The notes beneath the pieces were generated by a model. That model worked only from the letters and a program-made list of their open reading frames with translations. It searched no databases and had not been told where the DNA came from. Shown piece by piece: positions 651 through 22,509 of a DNA stretch of 22,827 nt. Where the stretch lies: IMG/VR virus record IMGVR_UViG_3300034102_002045, positions 1 to 22,827 of that record; one strand, 5' to 3'. The translations under genes were made by a program, and so were the position numbers. Positions within the stretch are counted from its first letter, which is position 1; each line of letters opens with the position of its first letter. This DNA comes from a virus.

Positions 651-1220
651 TTATCCTACAATCGTTGATTGTGTAAATACCGCAGCAATTAAGGCTTCAG
701 GTGTTGTACCTGAATAACCTGATGGTGCAGCTAATAATCTACTTGGTTCTTGCTCTTGTGCTGTGAAAATTAATGTCATACCATTTCTGTCCGCTAACGC
801 TAAACCTGTGTTTGCGTCACCACCAGATAAGTAAGAAAAATTAACTTGACCCATTACATATACATTATCGTTTTGGTCAATAACCAAAATTTGTAACGTA
901 TCGTTTTGTGACAATAATTTTAATTGGTTACGCTTTTCAGCGTCCATTTTATTTAATACTGCAGTAAGAACTTGTTCAAAATACACAGTACCATTTTCGT
1001 ACGACTTAGTTGTAGTCTGTACATATGAAGAAACTCCTCTCTTCATCGCGAAGCCGTAGTAAGAAACATCGCCTGAATCAGTAGCACCTGTGACAGAACT
1101 ATCTGCGTTGTAAGTGTAACCAGATGTATAACCTGATTGACCTGCAACATATATTTTCTTTACGCCACCAATACTATCTGAACAACCAATTGCTACTCCA
1201 CTTGAAATATAACAACTCAT
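651..1220 (-). CDS. Abundant virion protein, probable tail tube protein (189 aa)
   Basis: This 189-residue protein sits directly after the likely major capsid gene and is followed by a strong terminator, a placement typical of a highly expressed structural gene. The sequence is rich in Gly, Ser, Thr and Tyr. Near residues 125-155 it has a strand-turn-strand region with DQNDNVYVMGQVNF, then NTGLALADRNGMTLIF and a short EQEPSRLL. That pattern of an 'NTG..L.D.NG.TL.F' strand followed by 'E.EP..LL' resembles tube-like proteins annotated in Bacteroidota phages, but this is by-eye similarity and no catalytic motif exists to confirm it. A capsid decoration or head-tail joining protein is an alternative. 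The start is preceded by an A-rich tract without a Shine-Dalgarno sequence. Confidence 0.6.
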   Translation of the reverse strand: MSCYISSGVAIGCSDSIGGVKKIYVAGQSGYTSGYTYNADSSVTGATDSGDVSYYGFAMKRGVSSYVQTTTKSYENGTVYFEQVLTAVLNKMDAEKRNQLKLLSQNDTLQILVIDQNDNVYVMGQVNFSYLSGGDANTGLALADRNGMTLIFTAQEQEPSRLLAAPSGYSGTTPEALIAAVFTQSTIVG

Positions 1221-3110: not shown

Positions 3111-4607
3111 TTATTCGTATTTTTTTAATATTTCTACAACTTTATGTAAAAACATTTCCTCACGACAGAACGCAGCAACTTCTTCAAACCAACCTGATAC
3201 AGAATATCCCGCTAATTCTCCTGATTTTACCATCTCCCAAACCTTATCACCTTCAGGTGTTTTAGCACATTTCATTGCAACAAACCACGTTCCAATAGGT
3301 AAATCACCATAACCATACTTAGTTGACTTATCATTCTCATCTTCCTTAATCCAACTTTCAATAACATATACATCTTTTACCGCAGTACCATCGTGCATCA
3401 AATCGTTATTACGTGTATATTGATTCTTCATATACTTTTCCGCAATCATCTTGATAGTTTCTGAACTGAAATAAACTTCATACATATTACCTTGTACATC
3501 TTTTCTTGGGATACGTAAATCAGGAACCATTGCAGGACCTATAATTGTACGTTTTTCTTCATCAGCAGCAAACTTCTTTTGTTTCTTTTTCTTAATACCT
3601 GGATCTTCATACCCACCAATTGAACCTACATCATAACCAAAATCATTTAACTTACTTTCAGCCCAACTTAAAGCGGATAAACCTCCCCAACTATCATACA
3701 TCAATTTTCCACAACCATCACCATATCCTTTTGAACTTTCTAAATCTACTTTATGTCTTGATAAATAACTATACATTCTTTTTACTGTATCTAAACTAAT
3801 TGGTTCACCCTTGGCAAGTTGATTGGCTCTAATTTTACCAACCTCAGTACCACAACTTCCCCATCCATTTTCTTCCACATATTTCAATACCGCCTTAGCG
3901 TTGTTCTTAACACTATCAGGATAGTCACTTACACTTTCCATATTCACCTTACTGAATGAAGGCCACTCAGGAACCCTTGTGTCAGGTTGTTCCATTCCTA
4001 ATACCCTTGTGTCTAATGGTGCTTGTGGGTCTTTTTTACCTTGATTTACGGACGCTTTATTTCTAATCGTACTATCTAATGTATATTCAATTCTAGCCCA
4101 TAAATGACGACAATTATACCCTCCACGCCATACTAACGCACTATCACCCTCATCGTTGGTTAATGTATCCAAATCTTCCAATCTCCATACATAATTCTTT
4201 TGAACTAATTCTCTACAAAAATCTCTCGTTGTTGGAATAACTGATGGTGATTGTGCTTGAGGATTTAATACGTATTTATATCTTACTCTATATTCTGTTT
4301 CATCTTCTACTGATGGACCGTTTGGGTCTGGTGCAGTAATAAATCCTTCCTTACCTAATGGAGTTACTTTTGAAACTACCCAACCTTCTTCAAATAGTTC
4401 CTGTTCATTCTGTGCAATAGATTTTAATTTATCCAAATACTTACTATCTTCATTATCGGGGATATGAAACTCGTGTGGTTTTTCCTTACTGAAATACATC
4501 CAATTAATTTCAATAGCGGGTTCATCAACGAGTGATATACTATCTATACCACTTACTTCATCTTCCTCCTCAATCTTTAGTTCATATACTTTATCTTTCT
4601 TAATCAT
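3111..4607 (-). CDS. Composite capsid protein: XkdF-type prohead protease with inserted MuF-like and RHxVD modules (498 aa)
   Basis: The C-terminal part (residues about 352-478) looks like the XkdF-type phage serine protease (Peptidase_S78 relatives): GPAMVPDLRIPRKD, then YFSSETIKMIAEKYMKN, then LMHDG with a likely catalytic His405, VYVIESWI, the LPIGTWFVAMK strand, and VWEMVKSGELAGYSVSGWF with candidate nucleophile Ser469 or Ser471. The N-terminus contains SISLVDEPAIEINW (24-36), typical of the first strand of this protease. Between them lie two modules. Residues about 128-170 carry RDFCREL and GYNCRHLW, like the C-terminal part of MuF/head-morphogenesis proteins. Residues about 226-320 carry NAKAVLKYVEENG, GTEVGKIRANQLA and SYLSRHKVD, a small helical module seen in other phage head proteins. 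It precedes the scaffold-like and capsid genes, so procapsid maturation is the likely role. The assignments are by eye. Confidence 0.8.
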   Translation of the reverse strand: MIKKDKVYELKIEEEDEVSGIDSISLVDEPAIEINWMYFSKEKPHEFHIPDNEDSKYLDKLKSIAQNEQELFEEGWVVSKVTPLGKEGFITAPDPNGPSVEDETEYRVRYKYVLNPQAQSPSVIPTTRDFCRELVQKNYVWRLEDLDTLTNDEGDSALVWRGGYNCRHLWARIEYTLDSTIRNKASVNQGKKDPQAPLDTRVLGMEQPDTRVPEWPSFSKVNMESVSDYPDSVKNNAKAVLKYVEENGWGSCGTEVGKIRANQLAKGEPISLDTVKRMYSYLSRHKVDLESSKGYGDGCGKLMYDSWGGLSALSWAESKLNDFGYDVGSIGGYEDPGIKKKKQKKFAADEEKRTIIGPAMVPDLRIPRKDVQGNMYEVYFSSETIKMIAEKYMKNQYTRNNDLMHDGTAVKDVYVIESWIKEDENDKSTKYGYGDLPIGTWFVAMKCAKTPEGDKVWEMVKSGELAGYSVSGWFEEVAAFCREEMFLHKVVEILKKYE

Positions 4608-4748: not shown

Positions 4749-7736
4749 TTATAATACAGATAGGTTTTTTAATCTACCTTGTTTTTCTTGTGCTGTTGTT
4801 AATTCTTGTGAAACCACATATGTCTTAACGATTAATGGTGATTGTTCTTGTGATGGGTTATTTAAAATTGGATTATCTTGTCTTGTTGTGGTTAAGTTTG
4901 AATTAAATGACGCTCCACCACCCGCTTGATTCATCATTGATAATAATGGTGCAAACATTGCAACAGAACCTCGTGTCATAATAGCCTCACCTTTCTCCGC
5001 TTCAATTAAAGTTCCACCTTCTGCGTGTCTTCTACCACCTATCATACCACCTTTCTCGTAGTTTCTACCGTAATTTGCCATTGATGGTTTCCCTGTAGCT
5101 GTTTCAGATTCACTTAACTCAAGTGATGATTGATATTGTGTCTTTTTAATTGCAGCAACTTGTTTATAACCAAACACTAACGCAGCAGCCGCCGCTATTG
5201 GTGCTAATACAGGTCCTACAAACGGAATTGCAATAAGAGATGAGAAAGCACCTACTGCTGACTGTAATGTAGCAATAATTGCTTGAGCAATTTGTATCTT
5301 TTTATTTTCCTCAAACGCCTTTTTCTTTATATCATCTTCTTCCTTAGCAAACTTTTTCTTATTATCTAATAATTTCTTTTCAAGTTCTTCTTGATTTGTA
5401 ATTGTCTTTTTATCAAGTTCATTTTGTTTAATATACCTTTTAGTTGCTTGTTCCATTGCAACTTGTTGTTCTAATTGAGCAACTTTTCCAATGTCACTTG
5501 CAATTGTTTGTGCCACACCTAATGTTGCTTGTGCGGCTTGTAATATTGCTTGTAATTCTTGATTTGCAATGTCTTTTCCTGCTTTAAGATATTTCTCTTT
5601 AATTGCAAGTTTTTCCTTTTCAATCTGTTCAAGTGTAAGTTTTTCTTTTATTGCTCTATCCGCTAAATCAGCAAGTTCTTTTTTCTCAGCAGTTTTAAGT
5701 ATTGCACGTTGATTATCAAAAAATGATTTTGTTCCTTCCCTTAACGCGTCACCTCTAATCTGTAAGAACCTTAACTCATCATCTAATTTCTTTATATTTT
5801 TATCTCTACCTTTCTGTGCTTCATCATCATCTAACTTTTGAATAGCCTGATTTTTTGCTTTCTCTAACGCTAATATTATTCTAATCTTTTCTTCTAATGA
5901 TTGTTTTTGAAATTCTGTGTCCTTTTGTAGTGCCTCAACATCATCTGTATATTTACGTTCTAATGTTGCTTTATTTCTTGATAATTCATTCTCATCAGCG
6001 GCGTTCATTATCTCAAATACCTTATCATTATATTCTTTTATCTTCTTTTGGTCTTCATCAAATGTCTTATTATCTTCTTCCTGTCTTTTCTTATTTAATT
6101 CAATTACCTTTACACCATATTTTACCCTGATTTGTTCAAGTAATTGTGCTCTTAAAAATTCTTTATCTGTGGATAATTTTAAATTCTTTATATCTCTTTC
6201 CTCATTTTCCTTATCTATCTTTAATTGTGCGTCCTGTTTCTTCCTTTCCTCATTTAATACATTTACACTATTTTCCTGTTGAAGTTTAAGTAATAAGTCG
6301 TTTGCTTTCTGATTATCATTAGTAACTTTTTCGGTTGTCTTTTTAAGACCTTCTCTTTTTTTATCCGCAATTCTTAATTCTTCATCTAATCTAAATTGTT
6401 CGTTACTAAGGATTTGTTTAGTAATATCTTGACTGTTTTTTCTTAACTTGTCATTAATATCTTTACTTAACTTTTCTCTATCCTCATTATTAATTTTTGT
6501 ATTATTTTTTAACCTGTCTTGTTCCGCTTCAAGTTCTCCATTATATCTAAAAAGTTCAGCTAATCTATTTGCGTTACCTTCTTTTGTCTTTTTTGTAATT
6601 TCTTCCTCACTTTCACCAGCAATTTTTGCACGTGTAATATTGGCTTTATTAGCCATATCAATAGCTTCCAAATCATTCTGTAAAACTTTCTGTTGTTCTT
6701 CTAACGCACTTGTAAAACTTCTTGTCGCATCTTCAGATTTTTTTGTTGAAGTTGCAAACTCTACTAATTTACTAATTATAATACCTATAACTACAATTGC
6801 TGCTAAAACCCCTGTTGATATTAATACTGTTTTAATTGTATTACCTAATGTTGCGGTTGCTACTGTTGCTTCCGCTTCAGCAACAACTAATCCTTCAGTT
6901 GTAATAGTTAGAGCCCTACCTGAATTGACCGCAGTAACTTCCGCCTGACTTAATTCTCTAAAACTTTCAGCACCTTTTTTTCTGATGAACATACCACTCT
7001 CCATCATTTTGGTTTCTACTTCATATTTTTCTTCAAGTTGGTCTAATCCATTTGCTGCAATATTTTGTGCTTCTGTAAGACCTTGATATGTTGTTTGTGT
7101 GCGTTGAATTTCATTACCTAATTTTGAAATACTACCTTGTAATTCATCATTAGATTGTGCTGACGCAGTTGCTTCACCTGCGTTTGATGCTAATTGGTCA
7201 GAAAATTCACTAACTTTTTCACCTGCACTTTCTGCACTATCACCTACACTTTCAATTGCGTCACCATTAACACCACTTAAATTCTTTCCAATATCTGCAA
7301 TATCGTCCGCAGTTTCACCAAATTGAAACGCTAAATCTTTAAAAGTAAATGATGAAAATGTTTTTAATAATTCTATACTACCTTGTAATTGACCAAAAAA
7401 TTGTCCTATTGGACCAGGTAGTAATGATAAAGATGAAAATAAATCTTTTGATTTAGCAGTTGTTTTAGCTAATCCGTCCTGTGCTTCACCTAATCTTGAT
7501 GATAATAATTTAAATTCATCCGTACCTGCTTTAGTTTTTCTTAATTCAGCAGTTAAGGCTTTTACTTGTTGTTGTAAGTTGAGTGATTTATTAATAACAA
7601 CATCAAGTGGTTTCCCATCAACATCATATTGTATGCTAATCTTACTACTAAGTTGTTTTAATTCACCTAATTTAACCGCCGCTTTATCAATCCCATCGGT
7701 TTTAACCTCAGTTTCTATTATGAGTTTTTTAGCCAT
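4749..7736 (-). CDS. Tail tape measure protein (995 aa)
   Basis: This 995-residue protein has the classic tape measure layout. Long charged alpha-helical and coiled-coil stretches (residues about 345-800, rich in Lys, Glu, Asp, Gln and Asn) are broken by hydrophobic segments: one at about 300-326 (TVLISTGVLAAIVVIGIIIS) and one at about 815-860 (ALAPI-type, with IPFVGPVLAPIAAAAALVFG). The N-terminus has KLGELKQLSSKIS and KALTAELRKTKAGTDEFK, typical of tape measure starts. A Gly-rich tail at about 890-920 contains YEKGGMIGGRRHAEGGTLIE and then GEAIMTRGSV, often found at tape measure C-termini. The length sets tail length and the hydrophobic segments may act in membrane passage during DNA entry. 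It overlaps the preceding 64-residue gene by 8 bases (ATGGCTAA). Confidence 0.9.
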   Translation of the reverse strand: MAKKLIIETEVKTDGIDKAAVKLGELKQLSSKISIQYDVDGKPLDVVINKSLNLQQQVKALTAELRKTKAGTDEFKLLSSRLGEAQDGLAKTTAKSKDLFSSLSLLPGPIGQFFGQLQGSIELLKTFSSFTFKDLAFQFGETADDIADIGKNLSGVNGDAIESVGDSAESAGEKVSEFSDQLASNAGEATASAQSNDELQGSISKLGNEIQRTQTTYQGLTEAQNIAANGLDQLEEKYEVETKMMESGMFIRKKGAESFRELSQAEVTAVNSGRALTITTEGLVVAEAEATVATATLGNTIKTVLISTGVLAAIVVIGIIISKLVEFATSTKKSEDATRSFTSALEEQQKVLQNDLEAIDMANKANITRAKIAGESEEEITKKTKEGNANRLAELFRYNGELEAEQDRLKNNTKINNEDREKLSKDINDKLRKNSQDITKQILSNEQFRLDEELRIADKKREGLKKTTEKVTNDNQKANDLLLKLQQENSVNVLNEERKKQDAQLKIDKENEERDIKNLKLSTDKEFLRAQLLEQIRVKYGVKVIELNKKRQEEDNKTFDEDQKKIKEYNDKVFEIMNAADENELSRNKATLERKYTDDVEALQKDTEFQKQSLEEKIRIILALEKAKNQAIQKLDDDEAQKGRDKNIKKLDDELRFLQIRGDALREGTKSFFDNQRAILKTAEKKELADLADRAIKEKLTLEQIEKEKLAIKEKYLKAGKDIANQELQAILQAAQATLGVAQTIASDIGKVAQLEQQVAMEQATKRYIKQNELDKKTITNQEELEKKLLDNKKKFAKEEDDIKKKAFEENKKIQIAQAIIATLQSAVGAFSSLIAIPFVGPVLAPIAAAAALVFGYKQVAAIKKTQYQSSLELSESETATGKPSMANYGRNYEKGGMIGGRRHAEGGTLIEAEKGEAIMTRGSVAMFAPLLSMMNQAGGGASFNSNLTTTRQDNPILNNPSQEQSPLIVKTYVVSQELTTAQEKQGRLKNLSVL

Positions 7737-8464: not shown

Positions 8465-11400
8465 TTATTCACAAGGACAAGTTACGTTTGTAAATGTTGA
8501 AAAGTATATTGCTGAAGGATAGTTTGCTGCGATATACGCACTATCAACATTTGACACTATTCTTGAACAACACTCACTGTTTATTGTCACAAAACTCAAA
8601 TTACCTGCATTATAATCTACATAATATATTGCTGTTAAATCACATCTTTCGTACACATCATATGTTGAAGGTACAGGAGTTGAAGTAGGTACAGGAGTAG
8701 GTGTAGGACAAGCTACAATACCTGTAATTTCACCGTCTTGAGGTGAAGGTGTACCAACCACATAAATTGTTGAACTATCCACTAAACAATATACTGTAGG
8801 TATAACAGGGTTTGTATAATTATTATTTCTATATAATATAGTACCAATACCTAATGAACCTGAATAATATAATATTGTTGGTTCATATAATGGGTCAACA
8901 AAACGGGAACACGCTTGATTTGCAGTTGTTCCTGTGAAAGCAGTTATTTGGGAAGGTATTGGGGTTGCTGTTGGCGTAACAGTTGGTGTAGCAGTAGGAG
9001 TAAGGGTTGCGGTAGGAGTAGGGGTTGGTGTGTCAGTTGGTGGTATGGTATTACAAGCCTGACAAGTACCACTTCTTGTTGCAGTATTATCACCGCTAAA
9101 ATGGAATATCTGAACGTAATTACCACCTGAAGACAACCAAAAAGTATTTGTTCCTAATGATGTAAAGAAACCACTTGTATATGTTGTAGTAGCACAGAAT
9201 GTTGCAGCATTTAATGTTACTGTTATTGTTGTACCTCCATCACAAGCTAAAAATCCTGATGGTTGTGTTGTTCCGTGATATTGTACATTAATAGTTGGGA
9301 ACGGAGTTGGAGTAGGAGTTGGAGTAACAGTAACAGTTGGAGTAGGAGTTGGAGTAGGACAACTAAAACAAGCAGCTTGTGCTGTTGCTGAACTTCCAGT
9401 ACCATTCTTTTGATAATATCTTACTTGACCACCACTGGCTATCCAGAAAAATCCATTATTTTCAATTTCACTTAAAATACCTGATGAAGTAATTGTTGTA
9501 GAGTTACAAATATTACTTCCACTACCATTAAATGTCCAAGTACCATAACTTAAACCATCACAATTACACGCACTTTCATCACTATAATCACTCATACAAG
9601 CAGTAAATGGTTCAGGTGTAGCAGTAGGCGTTGGAGTAACAGTTGGAGTTGCAGTCGGAGTAGGGGTTGGAGTGTCTGTCGGTGGAAGACCTGTAGGTGT
9701 AGGAGTTGCAGTAGGAGTAGGCGTAGGAGTTGTTGCAGGGTCATATCCTGTACAAACATATCCTGTATTACAGTTTCCTGTTTGATATGTTAATGTTAAA
9801 TAAGATTGGTCTATACCCGTTGTTCCAACTGGATCATATTGAACTACACTACTTATAACTTGGATACATTGATAATATGTTCCTGGTCCTGTTGTGAAAG
9901 CACGTGCAGTTAATGTACCATAACAATCATTATATTGAAGTGTTGCAATTGTTCCACCTTCAGGTCCTGGTATTGTTGTTCCTGTCACTACAATTGGAAA
10001 GCAATAACATTGTCCTACAGGTGCAGGAGTTGCAGTAGGAGTAGGCGTAGGAGTATTTGTTACAGTAGGAGTAGGAGTTGGTGTACTTGTTACAGTTGGA
10101 GTAGGCGTTGGAGTTGCTGGAAATATTGGTTGAGGACAATCTATAAAATTACCATCCCTATCTAATTTAACAATAGACCACGCTTCTTTTGTTGTAGTTC
10201 CTACTGTATAAAATCTAAAGCTACCACCAAAATAAATTGTGTCATCAGCAGCAATATATATATTTTCTGCCATATTTTGTGGACTTACAAGATTACTACC
10301 ATAACCTAAATTAAAAGTATTATCAAATGAACCATCTGTATTTAATCTAATAACGTATGTATTATCATTCGTATTATTGACATAAGACGCAATTATTTTA
10401 CCATCAGATTGTAAATCAAATGAATTTAAATAATCATTATTTGATGTTAAGTATGAAGGTATATCAAATGTAAATCCAGTATTTAAACTACCATCAATAT
10501 TTAATTTAACCATACCAGTAACTGAAGTTCCATTATATGAAGTTAAAGCACCAGCTGAAACTAACATCGTTCCATCATTAAATGTATAAACTTGTTGTGT
10601 ATCACCACTAAAACCTGTACCTGGATTAAATGTTGTAAATAATGTACCATCTGGATTTAATACAACAATTCCATTTCTTGATTGACCTGAATATTCTGAA
10701 AAAGGACCAACAAGAACTATTTTATTTACATAAGTTCCACTATTAAAAACATCAATATCCCTTACAGTTGTGGATGTTGCACCTGTTACAAAATAACTTA
10801 CAAATGAAGTGTTTAATGTACCTCCTGTTGTAATTCTTGCTATACCAACTCTACTCGTTCCATTATATGTTGTAAACTGACCACCAATTAAAGTTTCTTT
10901 TGTTCCATCTTCTAATATTTCAACATCATATACTACTCCATTAGCTCCATTTACACCACCATTAAAGGATGTGTCGGTTGAACCATCTGTATTAAATTTT
11001 AAATAACCAACAAACCCACCCCAATATAACTTATCATCAATAGGGTCTATTTCAATTGAATTAGTTTGGTTAACACTTGTATGAGTAAATCCTGTATTTA
11101 AAACTGAGTTGTTATATAATTTTACGAAGTTATTTTTACCACTACCTAATGCCGTTCCGTTATAAATATCAAATTGACCACCAACAAATAAAGCACCATT
11201 TCTTCCCTGTTGTATTTCCCTAATATTTGATGTTGTACCTGTATTACCACGGTTAAAGTGTCTAATCTCATTAAAAGAATAACCTGGAGGACCATATGTT
11301 GCAGTATTGCCAGTCAATATTCCGTATGTTGATGAATCACTATAAAATGAAGCACAATTTTCCCACACATTAATACCTGTTTTTGTGTAACCACTATTGT

Positions 11401-14011
11401 TCCAAAAACCAGCTAAACTATAAATTAATCCATTTGGATTTTCGTATATATATTGTAAGACAGGGTCAGTACAACTCGGGTAACAACTTGATGAGTTATA
11501 TTCTGATTCAGTAATTTCTTTCATCGTATAAGGAATATAAAACTCCTCAATAGCACCTTCTAAATCTAATACTCTAAATGACGATGTGTATCCAGTTGTT
11601 GAACCTGTTAAACTACCAACCTGATTGTCATAATATAAAGACCAAATAAAGTTTGTCTGTCTTAAATTTGGATTTGTAAAATCTGTTTTAAATACAAAAC
11701 AAGTTGATGGGTCTTGACAATAGCTGTACTGAAAATATCTGTCAGGATAGTTTTGTGGATTAACATTAAACTGAAGTAATTCAACATTAGTCAATTCGTT
11801 ATTTACATAATTAAACTCACTAATCTTATTTACAATAAAGTATTGATTTTTAAGTCTAATTACATCGTTTGGTTTCAAATTAGATATGTCTGCAAAACTT
11901 AAATTAAATTTACCTGAAACAAATCTTGTATTTTGATTATATATATTGGTTATTCTATTTTTGTAGAATGTGTTGTACGCATCATTTTCTGTATATGTGT
12001 TATAGAATTGTACAGAATAATCTAAGGTTTCTTCTGAGTTGAATAAGATAGATAAGCTATCATTATTAAATCCCCTTCCACTTTTATATTCGTCTGCAAG
12101 ACCCATCGGCATCGTATGTGAAACTGATGGTATGCGGTCAAAATTACTTGCTGTACCACCTGTAGAGTTTTGTATTTTAACTGTATATGTATTATAAACA
12201 CCAGTATCAAATACTTCATTTACACTATCAATAAAAGGATTTAAACCCATTAACCAAAAGAATAATTTAGGTTTGGTTTTAACACCACCATAAACCCATC
12301 TTACTTGATTATCATAAGATGATTGTTGACTTGACGCAGAATAATTTATTCCTAAAGGAAGACCTATTACTGCTTCATTATCCCATTGTCTTACAATCTG
12401 AGGTGAGAATATTGTATCAATTCTTTTTGTTTCCGATTTAAAGTCAGTTGGATTTGGTATCCTATTAATACCATATATTCTATTATTCTTAATTTTAAAT
12501 TCTCTATTACCTTCATCATTATCTTCTAAATCACTTAATATCAATTCACTTTCCAAATAGTTTAGTGCAGGTTCAACCGTAAATCCTGCATCATAAGATA
12601 TTTTATCAGTCCAATCCCACACATCACCTGTTCCAACATAAAAATCAAACGGTTCAATAATAATATCACGAGGATTTTCAGGATTAGGTGTAAATACTAA
12701 ATTAAATTTCTTAGCTATTGAACTAAGTAAATCAATCTGTTTTATATTTTCATCTATAACTAAACTAAAATTAACAGGGTCACCATCAAAAAACGCAACA
12801 GATGAACCTACTGCTGCTGGTGCATATCTTAATGTACTAATGTCTGCTACAGGTACACCGTCTACTTCAAATCCAAAATCAAATCCTTCTACTGCAGTTA
12901 TTGTTACACCACTTGTTCCTATTGGTATTGTACCAAATTCAGAATAAGGGAACATATTTGCAAAACCATAATTTACATCGTCTAAACAATAAGAAGGTAC
13001 ACCTGTTCCTTTTTTACATACAATAATATTTAATTGTGAACCTGGTGATGTACTACCACTATAAATTAATTCAACACCTTCTAATGGTAGATTTTCTATA
13101 TTGTTAATCTTAAATCCAAATTTAGTTGCTTCAGAACTAAAATAACCATACATATATAATGTCTTCATCCAAGGCGTGTTAAAAAAATCAGATGTGATTG
13201 TATATCCATTTTCTTTAAACATCAATTGAATTAAACTGTATATATTTAACGCAGGTTTTAATTGGTTGTCATATAATCCTTGTGATGGTGAGTTAATATA
13301 ATATTCTTCCGCACCAGCAGAAGTTGCGCCTGTTAAAGTTGTCCATCCACTAATAGGGGTTGTTGGTGTATATAATCTTGTACGTCTTGAAACTGTTGCA
13401 CCACTAAAATCAGGTAATGTTGTACCACTTACATCTACATAATTGTAACCATTATGTACAATTGGATAGAAATAAGTTATAGGTTTTACATTATTCTGAA
13501 AGAAATTACTATCTGCAAGGTCGTTTGTAACACCTGTTAAAGTGAATATATGATTGAATGTATATTGAGGGTCGTTAAAATCAAGGTCTTTTAATAGGTT
13601 GTTTCCTATCTTACCGTATAAATCAGCTACACTTGAATATAAGGTCACATCATATTCTACCTTACTGTTCATCACATTTACTTTATTAAGTCTCAAATAC
13701 CCCTTAAAAAGGGTTTTACTGTCTAATATAATCCTACACTCTACTCTAAAGTTTGCGTTAAAGTTAAAACTATCAATATCCACGTCATAAAAACTTTCAA
13801 AAAACCTATTATTCTTTTTAGAACCAGGTAATAATAGATTTACTGAATAGTCAGAATTTCTTGTTGCAATATCCTGAAGTTCCGCAAAAGATTTATTTAT
13901 CTTAATTGGAACTTCATCATACAAATCCAAATATTCAAATTCAGTTGCACCTGTTATTGTCGCTGATGCGATATTAGTTTCTACCCTTAGTAAAGTTTGT
14001 TGTTGGGACAT
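8465..14011 (-). CDS. Giant modular tail/baseplate protein with delta-60-type propeller and Pro/Thr-linked Cys-rich modules (1848 aa)
   Basis: Residues 1 to about 780 look like a tail or baseplate body; near the start are DEVPIKINKSFAELQDI and LDSKTLFKGYLRLNKV, typical of tail proteins that define position and orientation. Residues about 920-1287 contain repeated units of the form NG(T/S)S..G...L...G.L.T.F with DGK or DGT turns (for example SYNGTSVTGMVKLNIDGSL), matching the delta-60 repeat (DUF5122) beta-propeller pattern. From about 1293 onward, five Thr-Pro-rich linkers (about 1293-1330, 1424-1467, 1550-1571, 1655-1686, 1767-1782) separate Cys-bearing modules of roughly 65-110 residues; two of these share a C...(T/S)SG....N.FW..SGG..V pattern. 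Position between the 538-residue tail gene and the tape measure supports a tail-tip role; the C-terminus is a candidate receptor-binding region. Start: ATG 3 bases after the upstream stop. Confidence 0.75.
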   Translation of the reverse strand: MSQQQTLLRVETNIASATITGATEFEYLDLYDEVPIKINKSFAELQDIATRNSDYSVNLLLPGSKKNNRFFESFYDVDIDSFNFNANFRVECRIILDSKTLFKGYLRLNKVNVMNSKVEYDVTLYSSVADLYGKIGNNLLKDLDFNDPQYTFNHIFTLTGVTNDLADSNFFQNNVKPITYFYPIVHNGYNYVDVSGTTLPDFSGATVSRRTRLYTPTTPISGWTTLTGATSAGAEEYYINSPSQGLYDNQLKPALNIYSLIQLMFKENGYTITSDFFNTPWMKTLYMYGYFSSEATKFGFKINNIENLPLEGVELIYSGSTSPGSQLNIIVCKKGTGVPSYCLDDVNYGFANMFPYSEFGTIPIGTSGVTITAVEGFDFGFEVDGVPVADISTLRYAPAAVGSSVAFFDGDPVNFSLVIDENIKQIDLLSSIAKKFNLVFTPNPENPRDIIIEPFDFYVGTGDVWDWTDKISYDAGFTVEPALNYLESELILSDLEDNDEGNREFKIKNNRIYGINRIPNPTDFKSETKRIDTIFSPQIVRQWDNEAVIGLPLGINYSASSQQSSYDNQVRWVYGGVKTKPKLFFWLMGLNPFIDSVNEVFDTGVYNTYTVKIQNSTGGTASNFDRIPSVSHTMPMGLADEYKSGRGFNNDSLSILFNSEETLDYSVQFYNTYTENDAYNTFYKNRITNIYNQNTRFVSGKFNLSFADISNLKPNDVIRLKNQYFIVNKISEFNYVNNELTNVELLQFNVNPQNYPDRYFQYSYCQDPSTCFVFKTDFTNPNLRQTNFIWSLYYDNQVGSLTGSTTGYTSSFRVLDLEGAIEEFYIPYTMKEITESEYNSSSCYPSCTDPVLQYIYENPNGLIYSLAGFWNNSGYTKTGINVWENCASFYSDSSTYGILTGNTATYGPPGYSFNEIRHFNRGNTGTTSNIREIQQGRNGALFVGGQFDIYNGTALGSGKNNFVKLYNNSVLNTGFTHTSVNQTNSIEIDPIDDKLYWGGFVGYLKFNTDGSTDTSFNGGVNGANGVVYDVEILEDGTKETLIGGQFTTYNGTSRVGIARITTGGTLNTSFVSYFVTGATSTTVRDIDVFNSGTYVNKIVLVGPFSEYSGQSRNGIVVLNPDGTLFTTFNPGTGFSGDTQQVYTFNDGTMLVSAGALTSYNGTSVTGMVKLNIDGSLNTGFTFDIPSYLTSNNDYLNSFDLQSDGKIIASYVNNTNDNTYVIRLNTDGSFDNTFNLGYGSNLVSPQNMAENIYIAADDTIYFGGSFRFYTVGTTTKEAWSIVKLDRDGNFIDCPQPIFPATPTPTPTVTSTPTPTPTVTNTPTPTPTATPAPVGQCYCFPIVVTGTTIPGPEGGTIATLQYNDCYGTLTARAFTTGPGTYYQCIQVISSVVQYDPVGTTGIDQSYLTLTYQTGNCNTGYVCTGYDPATTPTPTPTATPTPTGLPPTDTPTPTPTATPTVTPTPTATPEPFTACMSDYSDESACNCDGLSYGTWTFNGSGSNICNSTTITSSGILSEIENNGFFWIASGGQVRYYQKNGTGSSATAQAACFSCPTPTPTPTVTVTPTPTPTPFPTINVQYHGTTQPSGFLACDGGTTITVTLNAATFCATTTYTSGFFTSLGTNTFWLSSGGNYVQIFHFSGDNTATRSGTCQACNTIPPTDTPTPTPTATLTPTATPTVTPTATPIPSQITAFTGTTANQACSRFVDPLYEPTILYYSGSLGIGTILYRNNNYTNPVIPTVYCLVDSSTIYVVGTPSPQDGEITGIVACPTPTPVPTSTPVPSTYDVYERCDLTAIYYVDYNAGNLSFVTINSECCSRIVSNVDSAYIAANYPSAIYFSTFTNVTCPCE
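8665..10132 (-). repeat. Five Thr-Pro linker arrays encoded by GGNGTNGGNGTN-type repeats
   Basis: Within the giant tail gene, five low-complexity arrays (about 10022-10132, 9612-9740, 9297-9362, 8953-9045, 8665-8710) encode TPTPTPT-type linkers. On the plus strand they read as GGAGTAGGAGTTGGAGTA variants. The first two share a 30-bp exact direct repeat at 10025-10054 and 9701-9730, spaced 324 bp apart. Confidence 0.9.
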
Positions 14012-19332: not shown

Positions 19333-20340
19333 TTATACTTTTCTCCATACTGTTGATATTGTGTTCCATAATTCCGCTAACTCATACCACTTCTTATTCT
19401 CCACCACGAATGGTAATTCAGGAAGAACACATCTATTATAATCAAACGGTTGTGTTAATTGTAAGTTCATTGTCCATCCACCTAATACTGTTTCAAACCT
19501 TTCTAAGAATGGGTCACACGTTGCGTTCCATTCTGATTCATACTCACTCAAATACAATACTGTAAAAATATCCTTACAAATTTCTAATCCATCATTCATC
19601 ACATCTCGTTGATTTGAATAATCATCTTCCACTACATCTGTTATTATTATTTGAAAGTTATATATCATTTCATTCTGTGCTAATGTTGCTTGACCTGGCA
19701 CTATCCACATCCTACTATAGAGTGGTTCTTTCTCGGTCTCAATATCTAATGTCAATTGTGCAACATCACCAAACCCATATGAATTAATCTGTTCGTGTGC
19801 TCTTGCTATCTCTTTTAAATCATCCAATATTAATTTGTAAGTAACTTCATTAACTGATGTTGGTAATGTTAATCCTGATATTGGTAATACACAAGAATTA
19901 TAATCAAACGGTTGTTCTATTGTTATGTTTAAAGTCCATCCACCTAATAATGTCTCATATCTTTCTAAGAATGGTTCTGCGGGACTACTCCATAATGGTT
20001 CATAATCTATACTGAATCCACCGAATGTTTCTGTATATGATTGATATAGGATGGTCCATACATCTTTTACTGTCTCTAATGTGTCACTCATCACATCTTC
20101 CTGATTTGAAAGGTCTGCGTTGATAATATCACATATAATAATAGAGAAATTATAGTCCAATCTATTCTGTGCTAATACAGTTTGACCTGGTACCACATAC
20201 ATTTTCATATATACAGGTTCTTGTTTGGTCTCTATATCCATTGTAAGTTGGGTAATATCTCCATATCCAAAAGAATTTATCTGAGGATTATGATACGCAA
20301 TACCACTTAAATCTTGAATAACTTGTTTGTAGTTCACCAT
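19333..20340 (-). CDS. Tandemly duplicated structural protein, two copies of one domain (335 aa)
   Basis: The protein is two near-copies of a domain of roughly 150 residues. Copy 1 (about 4-155) and copy 2 (about 165-310) share INS(F/Y)G(Y/F)GD, QLT(M/L)DIET, EP(V/L)Y, (V)VPGQ...LAQN, (D/N)YNF.III, SNQ.DVM, PFLER(Y/F)ET(L/V)LGGWT and QPFDYN.CVLP. Similarity is also visible in the DNA, so the duplication is probably not ancient. The C-terminal about 25 residues are extra. The domain resembles a single-copy structural protein seen in Bacteroidota phages, but I know of no assigned function; tail terminator or head-tail joining roles would fit the place between the chaperone-like gene and the fibre. 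A 15-base TATATTTA-type motif lies 7 bases before its ATG. Confidence 0.7.
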   Translation of the reverse strand: MVNYKQVIQDLSGIAYHNPQINSFGYGDITQLTMDIETKQEPVYMKMYVVPGQTVLAQNRLDYNFSIIICDIINADLSNQEDVMSDTLETVKDVWTILYQSYTETFGGFSIDYEPLWSSPAEPFLERYETLLGGWTLNITIEQPFDYNSCVLPISGLTLPTSVNEVTYKLILDDLKEIARAHEQINSYGFGDVAQLTLDIETEKEPLYSRMWIVPGQATLAQNEMIYNFQIIITDVVEDDYSNQRDVMNDGLEICKDIFTVLYLSEYESEWNATCDPFLERFETVLGGWTMNLQLTQPFDYNRCVLPELPFVVENKKWYELAELWNTISTVWRKV

Positions 20341-20372: not shown

Positions 20373-21187
20373 TTATGAATTACGTGCTTGTTTCATAAGA
20401 CGGTCCTGTTCTTGGTCGTAGTTTATTAAATAAGAAACTTGATTTAGAACTTCCACCACCGTTTTTTCGTAGACGTACTCGTGTTTTGTAAAATCATTTC
20501 CAGCCAATTTATTGACGATAATGAACCAACCGTAGACCGATTGAAAAGAGCGGCTATAATTATCTTCCTCAAACTCCAAATTAGTTTCATCCTCATCCAC
20601 ATTGACAGTCTCGGTATTGAAGACAGCTGGAAATAATTGGAATATCTGTTTGCGTAATTGATAAAAAAAAACTGAGCCGATAATATGACACCTACATCTA
20701 ATTTATTCTTGAACAGTTCGGACCTTATCTTCATACTTTTAATATCGTATTTCTCAATATCAAAATCGTGTTTGGACCTTTCATTTGTAATTGGTCTATA
20801 CATAATTGATGTGAGGATATGTAGAAAGTCCAATAGTTCATCTTCTTTCTTACTACTGATGGTGTCCATATCCACAAACTCAGCAAACGATAAATCCTCC
20901 CACTTAGGAAAGAATCCATAATGAACACCATCCAATTCAAACCTATCTTTAAATGGTGGTCTTTCTTGTGGTATAAGTTTTATAATTTCTGACGCAAGGT
21001 AATTAACCTTTTCAAAATCTGTCTCTAACAAATCCTCAATTGGTGCTCCTGTAAATAAGTTCACCAACTTGGCTGCGTAATAATCGTCTGAGAATAAATC
21101 CTTCAACTTATACATCTTAACATAATGACCTATCGTCATAAGTTCTGGTATCTCGTATTGTTTATCCTCTATTGTAAATTTTATCAT
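20373..21187 (-). CDS. Tail-assembly-chaperone-like protein, full -1 frameshift product (about 271 aa)
   Basis: Reading from the ATG at 21187, a -1 slip at the T9 run (20663-20671) joins 175 residues to a 96-residue extension that ends at 20373. The extension starts YQLRKQIFQLFPAVFN, passes through an acidic stretch (VDEDETNLEFEEDN) and contains YGWFIIVNKLAGNDFTKHEY then a helix to LINYDQEQDRLMKQ. This looks like real coding sequence and resembles C-terminal parts of tail-assembly or related chaperones in Bacteroidota phages. The N-terminal part has FPKWEDLSFAEFVDMDTI and LHILTSIMYRPI, also typical of those proteins. Producing a short form and a -1 extended form is the lambda G/GT scheme. An undercounted base (true T10) would instead make one continuous gene. 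Overlaps terL by 4 bases (ATGA). Confidence 0.65.
20444..21187 (-). CDS. Zero-frame product of the chaperone-like gene (247 aa)
   Basis: Without slipping at T9, translation continues for 72 more codons to a stop at 20444. Residues 1-175 are shared with the extended form. The unshared tail (residues 176-247) has an unusual composition with runs of Trp, Met, Arg, Lys and Ile (for example MWMRMKLIWSLRKIII) and looks like an out-of-frame reading of the acidic extension. It may be a genuine short isoform, as in lambda G, or simply the unslipped default product. The region shared by both is the trustworthy part. Confidence 0.5.
   Translation of the reverse strand: MIKFTIEDKQYEIPELMTIGHYVKMYKLKDLFSDDYYAAKLVNLFTGAPIEDLLETDFEKVNYLASEIIKLIPQERPPFKDRFELDGVHYGFFPKWEDLSFAEFVDMDTISSKKEDELLDFLHILTSIMYRPITNERSKHDFDIEKYDIKSMKIRSELFKNKLDVGVILSAQFFFINYANRYSNYFQLSSIPRLSMWMRMKLIWSLRKIIIAALFNRSTVGSLSSINWLEMILQNTSTSTKKRWWKF
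20663..20671 (-). promoter_or_regulatory. T9 slippery site, candidate -1 ribosomal frameshift
   Basis: On the coding strand CAG TTT TTT TTT ATC reads Q-F-F-F-I in frame 0. A -1 slip gives TTT TTT TAT CAA and enters the open extension frame. The run fits the X XXY YYZ rule for tandem slippage. No convincing downstream stem-loop or pseudoknot is visible by eye; only a weak 4-5 bp pairing exists. A sequencing homopolymer undercall is the main alternative. Confidence 0.55.
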
Positions 21188-22509
21188 ATGAAACTAATTG
21201 AATATTTTCCTGTTGTTTTATGGTTGGATACTTCAAATAACATCTTCATCATTACTGCATCTGAAATATCGGGAGATGAACCTAATATCTTTTTCATCTC
21301 ATCCTTACTGTGAACCCCTATCTTATTATCTTTATCTGTGTCCTTTAATCTTACACTTAATAGTTCTTGTGTTAATGTGTCTATTGTATTTGGGTCCATA
21401 ACATTTACACTAATCTTTCCCTCCTTAAACATTTCACTTAGTTTAATATAACATTGTGATTTTAAATTGGTATAGTTTTGTTTATGTAATGGACTTGCAT
21501 TGTTTATAAAGTTCTTTCCACGTATTTGGTCTGCTACACCTCCACCAACGCCATCACTATCTACTACAATGTTTTGAGGATGTACCCCGTATTTCTGTAT
21601 TAGACCCCTTATTTCTTCACTCAATTCTGTTGTTGATAGTTTGGTATAGGTAAGTATTTCCGTTATAACATTACCCACCCAAATCACTACTACTGACCTA
21701 TCACTACCGAACCTCGCAACGTCCACACTCATAAACTTTTTATCATCCACATTTGGTGGTGTCTTGAATATACTTGAACTGATTATATCAAAATCAAATA
21801 AACTATCTTCTTCCTGTTCGTAGTTCCAATCACCTAAGTATAAACGTTTCATTTGTTTTGGTGGTAGGTTCTTTAGTATATCCAAATATTCAGGGGGTAA
21901 AAATTTGTTGTCACTCGGTAACGCTTGTATAAATATTTTTGTTTTATCTAATGTCCCTTGTATATGTGGTAAATAAAATTCTTGTTTCAACCACGATTGA
22001 GATGGGTTACAAGACATAAAGAGTGTTGGTTTTAATTTATACTCATTAATCTTATATCTTAATAATGAACGGACCACATCATACGCTTGTCTTGATACTT
22101 GTGCTACCTCATCTATAAACGCAATAGTTATTTCTAATCCTCCCAATGAATCGTAGTTAGGGTCTGATGGATTGTACTGTAAATCTCTAAACACTATCTC
22201 ACTACCATTGTAGAACTTTAATTCGTTTGATTGTTGATTATATGTATAATGTTCAGGATTAATTCCACACTCCTTGAATAGGTCTAATAATGTCTTTATA
22301 GTGGTAACCCTTAATTGTGTTAATACTGTACGTCCTATCAACGCCCTAATACCAGGATAAGTAAGACACATATATAGAACCCATACAGTACCCAAATAGG
22401 ATTTTCCACTTCCTTTCGCACCACCATACAGAACTTCACGATGTGTTTTATCAAGTAAGATTTTAAATGTTTCAGATTGTTTCTTAGTTAAGTTTAAGTT
22501 TATTTCCAT
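21184..22509 (-). CDS. terL: Terminase large subunit (441 aa)
   Basis: This ATPase-nuclease motor packages phage DNA into the procapsid through the portal. The Walker A motif is GGAKGSGKS at residues 29-37 and the Walker B is IAFIDE at 129-134, with Asp133 and catalytic Glu134. The coupling motif region includes LFMSCNPS at about 163-170. The RNase-H-like nuclease half shows the first acidic residue in SVDVARFGSDRS (Asp263, Asp270), a second in VVDSDGVGGG (Asp317, Asp319) and a third near SPDISDAVMM towards the C-terminus. The length of 441 residues is normal. Its start overlaps the stop of the glycosyltransferase-like gene by one base (TAATG), and its end overlaps the next gene by four. No small terminase subunit is visible in the window. 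Confidence 0.97.
   Translation of the reverse strand: MEINLNLTKKQSETFKILLDKTHREVLYGGAKGSGKSYLGTVWVLYMCLTYPGIRALIGRTVLTQLRVTTIKTLLDLFKECGINPEHYTYNQQSNELKFYNGSEIVFRDLQYNPSDPNYDSLGGLEITIAFIDEVAQVSRQAYDVVRSLLRYKINEYKLKPTLFMSCNPSQSWLKQEFYLPHIQGTLDKTKIFIQALPSDNKFLPPEYLDILKNLPPKQMKRLYLGDWNYEQEEDSLFDFDIISSSIFKTPPNVDDKKFMSVDVARFGSDRSVVVIWVGNVITEILTYTKLSTTELSEEIRGLIQKYGVHPQNIVVDSDGVGGGVADQIRGKNFINNASPLHKQNYTNLKSQCYIKLSEMFKEGKISVNVMDPNTIDTLTQELLSVRLKDTDKDNKIGVHSKDEMKKILGSSPDISDAVMMKMLFEVSNHKTTGKYSISFI

Follow-up and report, generated by a model that had tools for sequence, protein, structure and literature searches.

The window analysed here, a 22.8 kb virus fragment from IMG/VR, encodes a terminase large subunit (TerL) followed at once by a chaperone-like gene, whose start codon (ATG at 21187) overlaps the terL stop and whose frame 0 closes at the stop codon 20444-20446 (Table 1). 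Within this gene lies a T9 stretch, the sole run of at least nine A or T residues in the window, and a -1 step here leads to a 271-residue fusion that ends at 20373. The next gene codes for a 335-residue protein, the two similar halves of which are related to a phrog_30964 domain, present singly in the cultured Nonlabens phage P12024S and in distant relatives. The tape measure further downstream is the presumed partner of the putative chaperone. The nearest cultured relatives of this terL belong to phages of Bacteroidota, namely Flavobacterium phage 11b (42%) and Cellulophaga phi10:1 (41%).

Table 1. Position of the frame-switch gene, its elements and selected genes of the window.
Feature	Position	Strand	Remarks
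terL (terminase large subunit), immediately upstream	21184..22509	-	Terminase_3, E 4e-11; phrog_2, E 5e-41
Frame-0 product, 247 aa	20444..21187	-	ORF; N-domain, aa 1-175, and basic C-terminal tail, aa 176-247
T9 slip run, CAG TTT TTT TTT ATC	20663..20671	-	in-phase T TTT TTT inside
Acidic C-terminal extension of 96 aa in frame -1 (T-like domain)	20373..20663	-	best domain match of relatives always in frame -1
Dual-coding overlap, 72 codons in frame 0 and shifted frame -1	20447..20662	-	frame-0 stops absent in relatives
Following gene (335 aa; both halves alike)	19333..20340	-	phrog_30964, E 1.2e-7
Gene for the tape measure, roughly 13 kb downstream	4749..7736	-	phrog_2854 tail length tape measure, E 1.4e-5
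Candidate tail tube protein, phrog_19091 (function inferred)	651..1220	-	P12024S has one too

To assess the conservation of the frame switch, close relatives were fetched from IMG/VR by protein-guided scans, with 101 complete ones analysed, and distant relatives (approximately 20-35% identity) were reached via profile bridging to P12024S; the 59 loci of the distant set are those in which a T domain could be detected and frame 0 is closed. The -1 offset is the same in 101/101 close relatives and is likewise present in all 59 distant loci, and the profile of the -1 domain finds its best match in frame -1 at every locus where the domain was detected. The run consists of T9 in 92 and T7 in nine of the close relatives, and of T9 in 49 and T10 in ten of the distant ones; all 160 loci have a T TTT TTT in phase inside the run. 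Hence, the -1 switch that the first-pass annotation had placed at the T9 is borne out, with a break point conserved among homologs. Single-chain matches in BFVD to both the N-terminal and the -1 domain (e.g. A0A6J5N0W0) hinted at unshifted fusions; none of the IMG/VR relatives shows the two in frame. A scan of genome contigs recovered no relative, and a tblastn search with the window proteins against cultured phages gave no match.

Two sequenced isolates reached by profile comparison show the same arrangement. In P12024S (NC_018271.1, 23136-23830), the adjacent gp38 and gp39 are linked by a T9 in the -1 register, and the same holds for gp40 and gp41 of P12024L. The annotation of both phages lists the halves as two distinct hypothetical proteins (phrog_32199 and phrog_38404 in P12024S), but judged from their sequences, each pair looks like one frame-switched gene homologous to that of the window (hhalign, 95-96%). 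Here too, this gene sits between terL and a phrog_30964 gene, with a candidate tape measure gene, gp49, further downstream; unlike in the window, where it spans 72 codons, the frame-0 tail in P12024S has just 25. In Flavobacterium phage 6H, gp10 (NC_021867.1, 9586-10927), upstream of the tape measure gene, gave a weak fold match. Close to the end of this gene sits a T TTT TTC, but frame -1 meets a stop immediately; further downstream, a different frame may encode a T-like domain. This could reflect a recoding site of another kind, an error in the sequence or the absence of any relationship.

The first-pass annotation had also raised the prospect of a sequencing or assembly undercall, with the run being T10 in reality and the gene a single uninterrupted frame. 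While homopolymers are indeed error-prone, about 160 contigs and the cultured P12024S and P12024L share one and the same register, and 22 sequences have it with T7, which excludes a base-call error; the independent conservation of the frame-0 tail points the same way; we accordingly consider an undercall extremely improbable. Judged by comparison of these sequences, the switch to frame -1 at the T run is conserved, genuine and far beyond what chance would give.

Only the -1 continuation had been seen as protein-like at the outset. This view has to be abandoned, as the frame-0 tail is never interrupted and shows conservation and selection of its own. It ranges from 16 to 76 codons outside the window, stays free of stops in every relative and is open over 62-72 codons in 36/36 close representatives, for which synonymous resampling of the -1 frame leaves it open in 0.5% of cases on average. 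Across 52 distant representatives, an average of 2.5 frame-0 stops was expected in each and none was seen. Substitutions counted by codon position on a tree of 59 sequences show that the share falling on third positions of the gene and its -1 frame is 0.62 before the slip site, 0.36 in the overlap and 0.61 after the frame-0 stop (Mann-Whitney p=7e-11 for third-position counts in the overlap versus the N-terminal part). In the middle of the overlap this share comes down to 26%, with the wobble position of frame 0 being the most variable; the third positions of frame -1 are conserved solely from the slip site to the frame-0 stop. A period-three pattern bounded in this manner points to two coding frames that overlap and not to an RNA structure. 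Four tail residues, S189, W204, G221 and S224, are invariant in an alignment of 60 sequences, and the mean charges of the two C-termini are opposite, at +10 for frame 0 and -4.5 for frame -1. By these sequence signatures both C-termini, the basic tail and the acidic T-like domain, are under selection. As the switch picks between two conserved C-termini, with up to 76 overlapping codons, the tail of the short form must do something.

We propose that a single start and a programmed frame switch at the poly-T run yield two proteins from this gene. Unswitched decoding would produce the 247-residue form, with the N-terminal domain followed by the basic, mostly helical tail of 72 residues; a -1 shift, in effect the addition of one extra U, would replace this tail with the acidic T-like domain to give the longer form. 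The switch would come about by slippage of the RNA polymerase, either on U9-U10 or on U7 with the aid of a hairpin in the nascent RNA. By analogy to lambda gpG/gpGT, the predicted proteins may then hold the tape measure and recruit tube subunits. Taken as a whole, this account of a two-isoform gene that works like a tail assembly chaperone, with the switch made by the polymerase, is the one we lean toward.

The alternative to polymerase slippage is that the same two isoforms are made, in the manner of lambda G/GT, by ribosomal -1 frameshifting, with tRNA-Phe slipping in tandem on T TTT TTT. The heptamer is a legitimate one of the X XXY YYZ type, is in phase at all 160 loci, and T7 is enough in a minority of them; further, the tail chaperone cases that have been reviewed are described as ribosomal (PMC5009743; PMC10885494). 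However, translation alone would not need T9, yet neither T8 nor T TTT TTC nor any other substitute heptamer occurs at the switch in about 160 loci, some of which are merely 20-35% identical. The run holds at nine or ten T over very deep divergence and in different phases, being T7 only where there is a hairpin. The common, if not obligatory, stimulators of ribosomal frameshifting also failed to emerge: RNAalifold predicted no downstream (3') RNA structure, and an upstream Shine-Dalgarno (SD)-like motif was seen in just 2/59 sequences. In turn, a run of about nine A or T, or a shorter one with a 5' hairpin, is what characterizes programmed transcriptional slippage, and it is at a length of nine that bacterial genes usually avoid A/T runs as slippage-prone (PMC1088944).

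The T7 runs are particularly informative in this regard. They are preceded by a hairpin, GTGCT-NNN-AGCAC, with 4 nt between its end and the run (full consensus, GAGGTAYGTGCTNNNAGCACANNNTTTTTTTA), in which the stem is kept and the loop varies. It is present in 22/22 T7 sequences as against 0/87 of those with T9, and on a tree built without this stretch the two states interchange through seven changes. Part of the T7 sample of 22 was gathered using a pattern that contained the hairpin; nevertheless, no T7 without a hairpin came up in the protein-based searches or among the matches listed for a hairpin-free pattern. Shared ancestry and recombination of the cassette weaken this count, and the latter could inflate or even explain the joint switching of run and hairpin. 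The constant pairing of T7 with a neighboring 5' hairpin speaks against the ribosome, which, when at the slip site, would presumably cover it. A precedent on the side of the polymerase is an insertion sequence (IS) of Roseiflexus, where slippage on a short run is enabled by a hairpin directly 5' of it (PMC5009743). For SARS-CoV, attenuation of -1 shifting was reported for a hairpin placed 4 nt upstream of the slip site. Separately, the T7 cassette of close relatives also keeps a GAGGTAY upstream of the hairpin (e.g. L069, 3010-3050), which is a candidate for a pause signal, an SD-like element or mere shared descent.

Long runs are also avoided in the other coding genes of these phages, where T8 was seen three times versus about 36 expected. 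In-phase T7 is avoided far less than T8 and is depleted no more than T7 in other phases. Such avoidance could instead reflect slippage during replication. Given the pattern of T9/T10 or hairpin-T7, the avoidance of T8, and the lack of a 3' structure or clear SD element, sequence patterns favor RNA polymerase slippage as the probable mechanism, and ribosomal frameshifting appears to us a weaker though substantial contender. Of the initial comparison with lambda G/GT, the conserved -1 architecture with two predicted products stands, whereas the ribosomal mode of making them fits the run lengths and hairpins less well than the polymerase does.

As to the identity of the protein, searches of Pfam, PHROG and PDB sequences returned no functional name. 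An AlphaFold2 model of the 247-residue form, built from 60 relatives, has a mean pLDDT of 74.5, with ten-residue blocks at about 72-89 over residues 1-180 and lower values in the tail. The top PDB match of its N-terminal domain (VIA-align 2) is the HK97 tail assembly chaperone gp13 (2ob9; Z 4.1, the next match being 2.4). This match is weak, extending over 68 residues with an rmsd of 3.5 and confined to residues 1-73, and Foldseek against the PDB gave nothing significant; at the level of predicted structure we take it as a weak but specific hint at a chaperone fold. Among sequence families, Phage_TAC_7 (PF10109) matched a single distant relative, L158, with a sub-threshold E of 0.063, and no Pfam chaperone family rose above threshold. 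The -1 domain folded by itself (pLDDT 70) had no informative structural match.

The gene is also not in the customary position of tail chaperones, i.e. between the major tail protein and tape measure genes, although this is not a functional criterion. The first-pass annotation had noted its place beside terL, about 13 kb from the tape measure gene, and this has proven to be a trait of the lineage, since P12024S and distant relatives have it likewise. The order, seen whole or in part in P12024S and the distant relatives L141, L145 and L182, is terL, the frame-switch gene, a phrog_30964 protein, a phrog_29822 or neck-like protein, large tail genes and the tape measure, with the phrog_30964 gene coming right after the frame-switch gene in all four. 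In L141, which has a clear tape measure gene (E 7e-44), the distance to the latter is about 5.7 kb.

It is conceivable that the frame-switch gene has another role in the assembly of the tail or head, for instance as a connector assembly factor, given that it adjoins terL far from the tape measure gene and lacks a chaperone family match at threshold. We consider this unlikely as the best structural match is HK97 gp13 and the -1 two-product design, found in 160 loci and the cultured phages, goes together with tail-gene neighbors. The comparative analysis hence makes a chaperone role of the predicted proteins quite probable, in keeping with how the gene was first described; the position beside terL and the weak fold and sub-threshold family matches lead us to say that it works like a chaperone rather than to claim settled membership.

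With lambda gpG/gpGT, HK97 gp13/gp14 and P2 E/E', this gene has in common a single start giving a short form and a -1 fusion, and the nature of a small gene of the tail module; with HK97 gp13 it additionally shares the weak structural resemblance of the N-terminal domain. It differs from them in its location by terL, in a slip site that across the group is always poly-T, and in a mechanism that probably operates at transcription. A further difference is in the short form: in the window the frame-0 stop lies 216 nt past the slip site, and the group as a whole spans 48-228 nt, as against averages of 26-36 nt in the reviewed tail chaperones (PMC10885494), and the tail so encoded is itself under selection. 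Established slippage genes include Shigella mxiE, Thermus dnaX, with its nine-nt run, and the Roseiflexus IS630 element, with its 5' hairpin and U5C5; as here, overlapping frames are served by a run of nine or by a shorter one behind an adjacent 5' hairpin, akin to the T7 cassette. None of these is a phage tail gene, and the family described here alternates both types of putative signal in one gene.

Frameshifting in tail chaperones is textbook ribosomal recoding, and we found no description of a tail chaperone switch made by the polymerase in the open-access papers searched. Those papers likewise hold no account of what we regard as new: the long selected frame-0 tail, the signal that is exclusively poly-T with hairpin-T7 as its alternative, and the unrecognised gp38/gp39 pair. 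At its broadest, the proposal is that a widespread phage group, related to marine flavobacterial phages in culture, produces its pair of tail chaperones via polymerase slippage at interchangeable U9-U10 or hairpin-U7 signals, and thereby chooses between two selected C-terminal domains encoded in the same DNA instead of merely extending a short protein; to this we would give an even chance. The swapping of T9 and hairpin-T7 amounts to a natural experiment on the requirements of slippage signals, and P12024S and P12024L, in which annotation has overlooked the frame switch by leaving the halves as separate hypothetical genes, make it testable in culture.

Elsewhere in the window, a protein of 498 residues (3111-4607) has an XkdF-like protease domain at residues 348-473, and the rest of it contains segments with matches to head genes, portal-like or of unknown type. 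A probable tail protein of 1848 residues (8465-14011) contains several long Pro-Thr repeat stretches.
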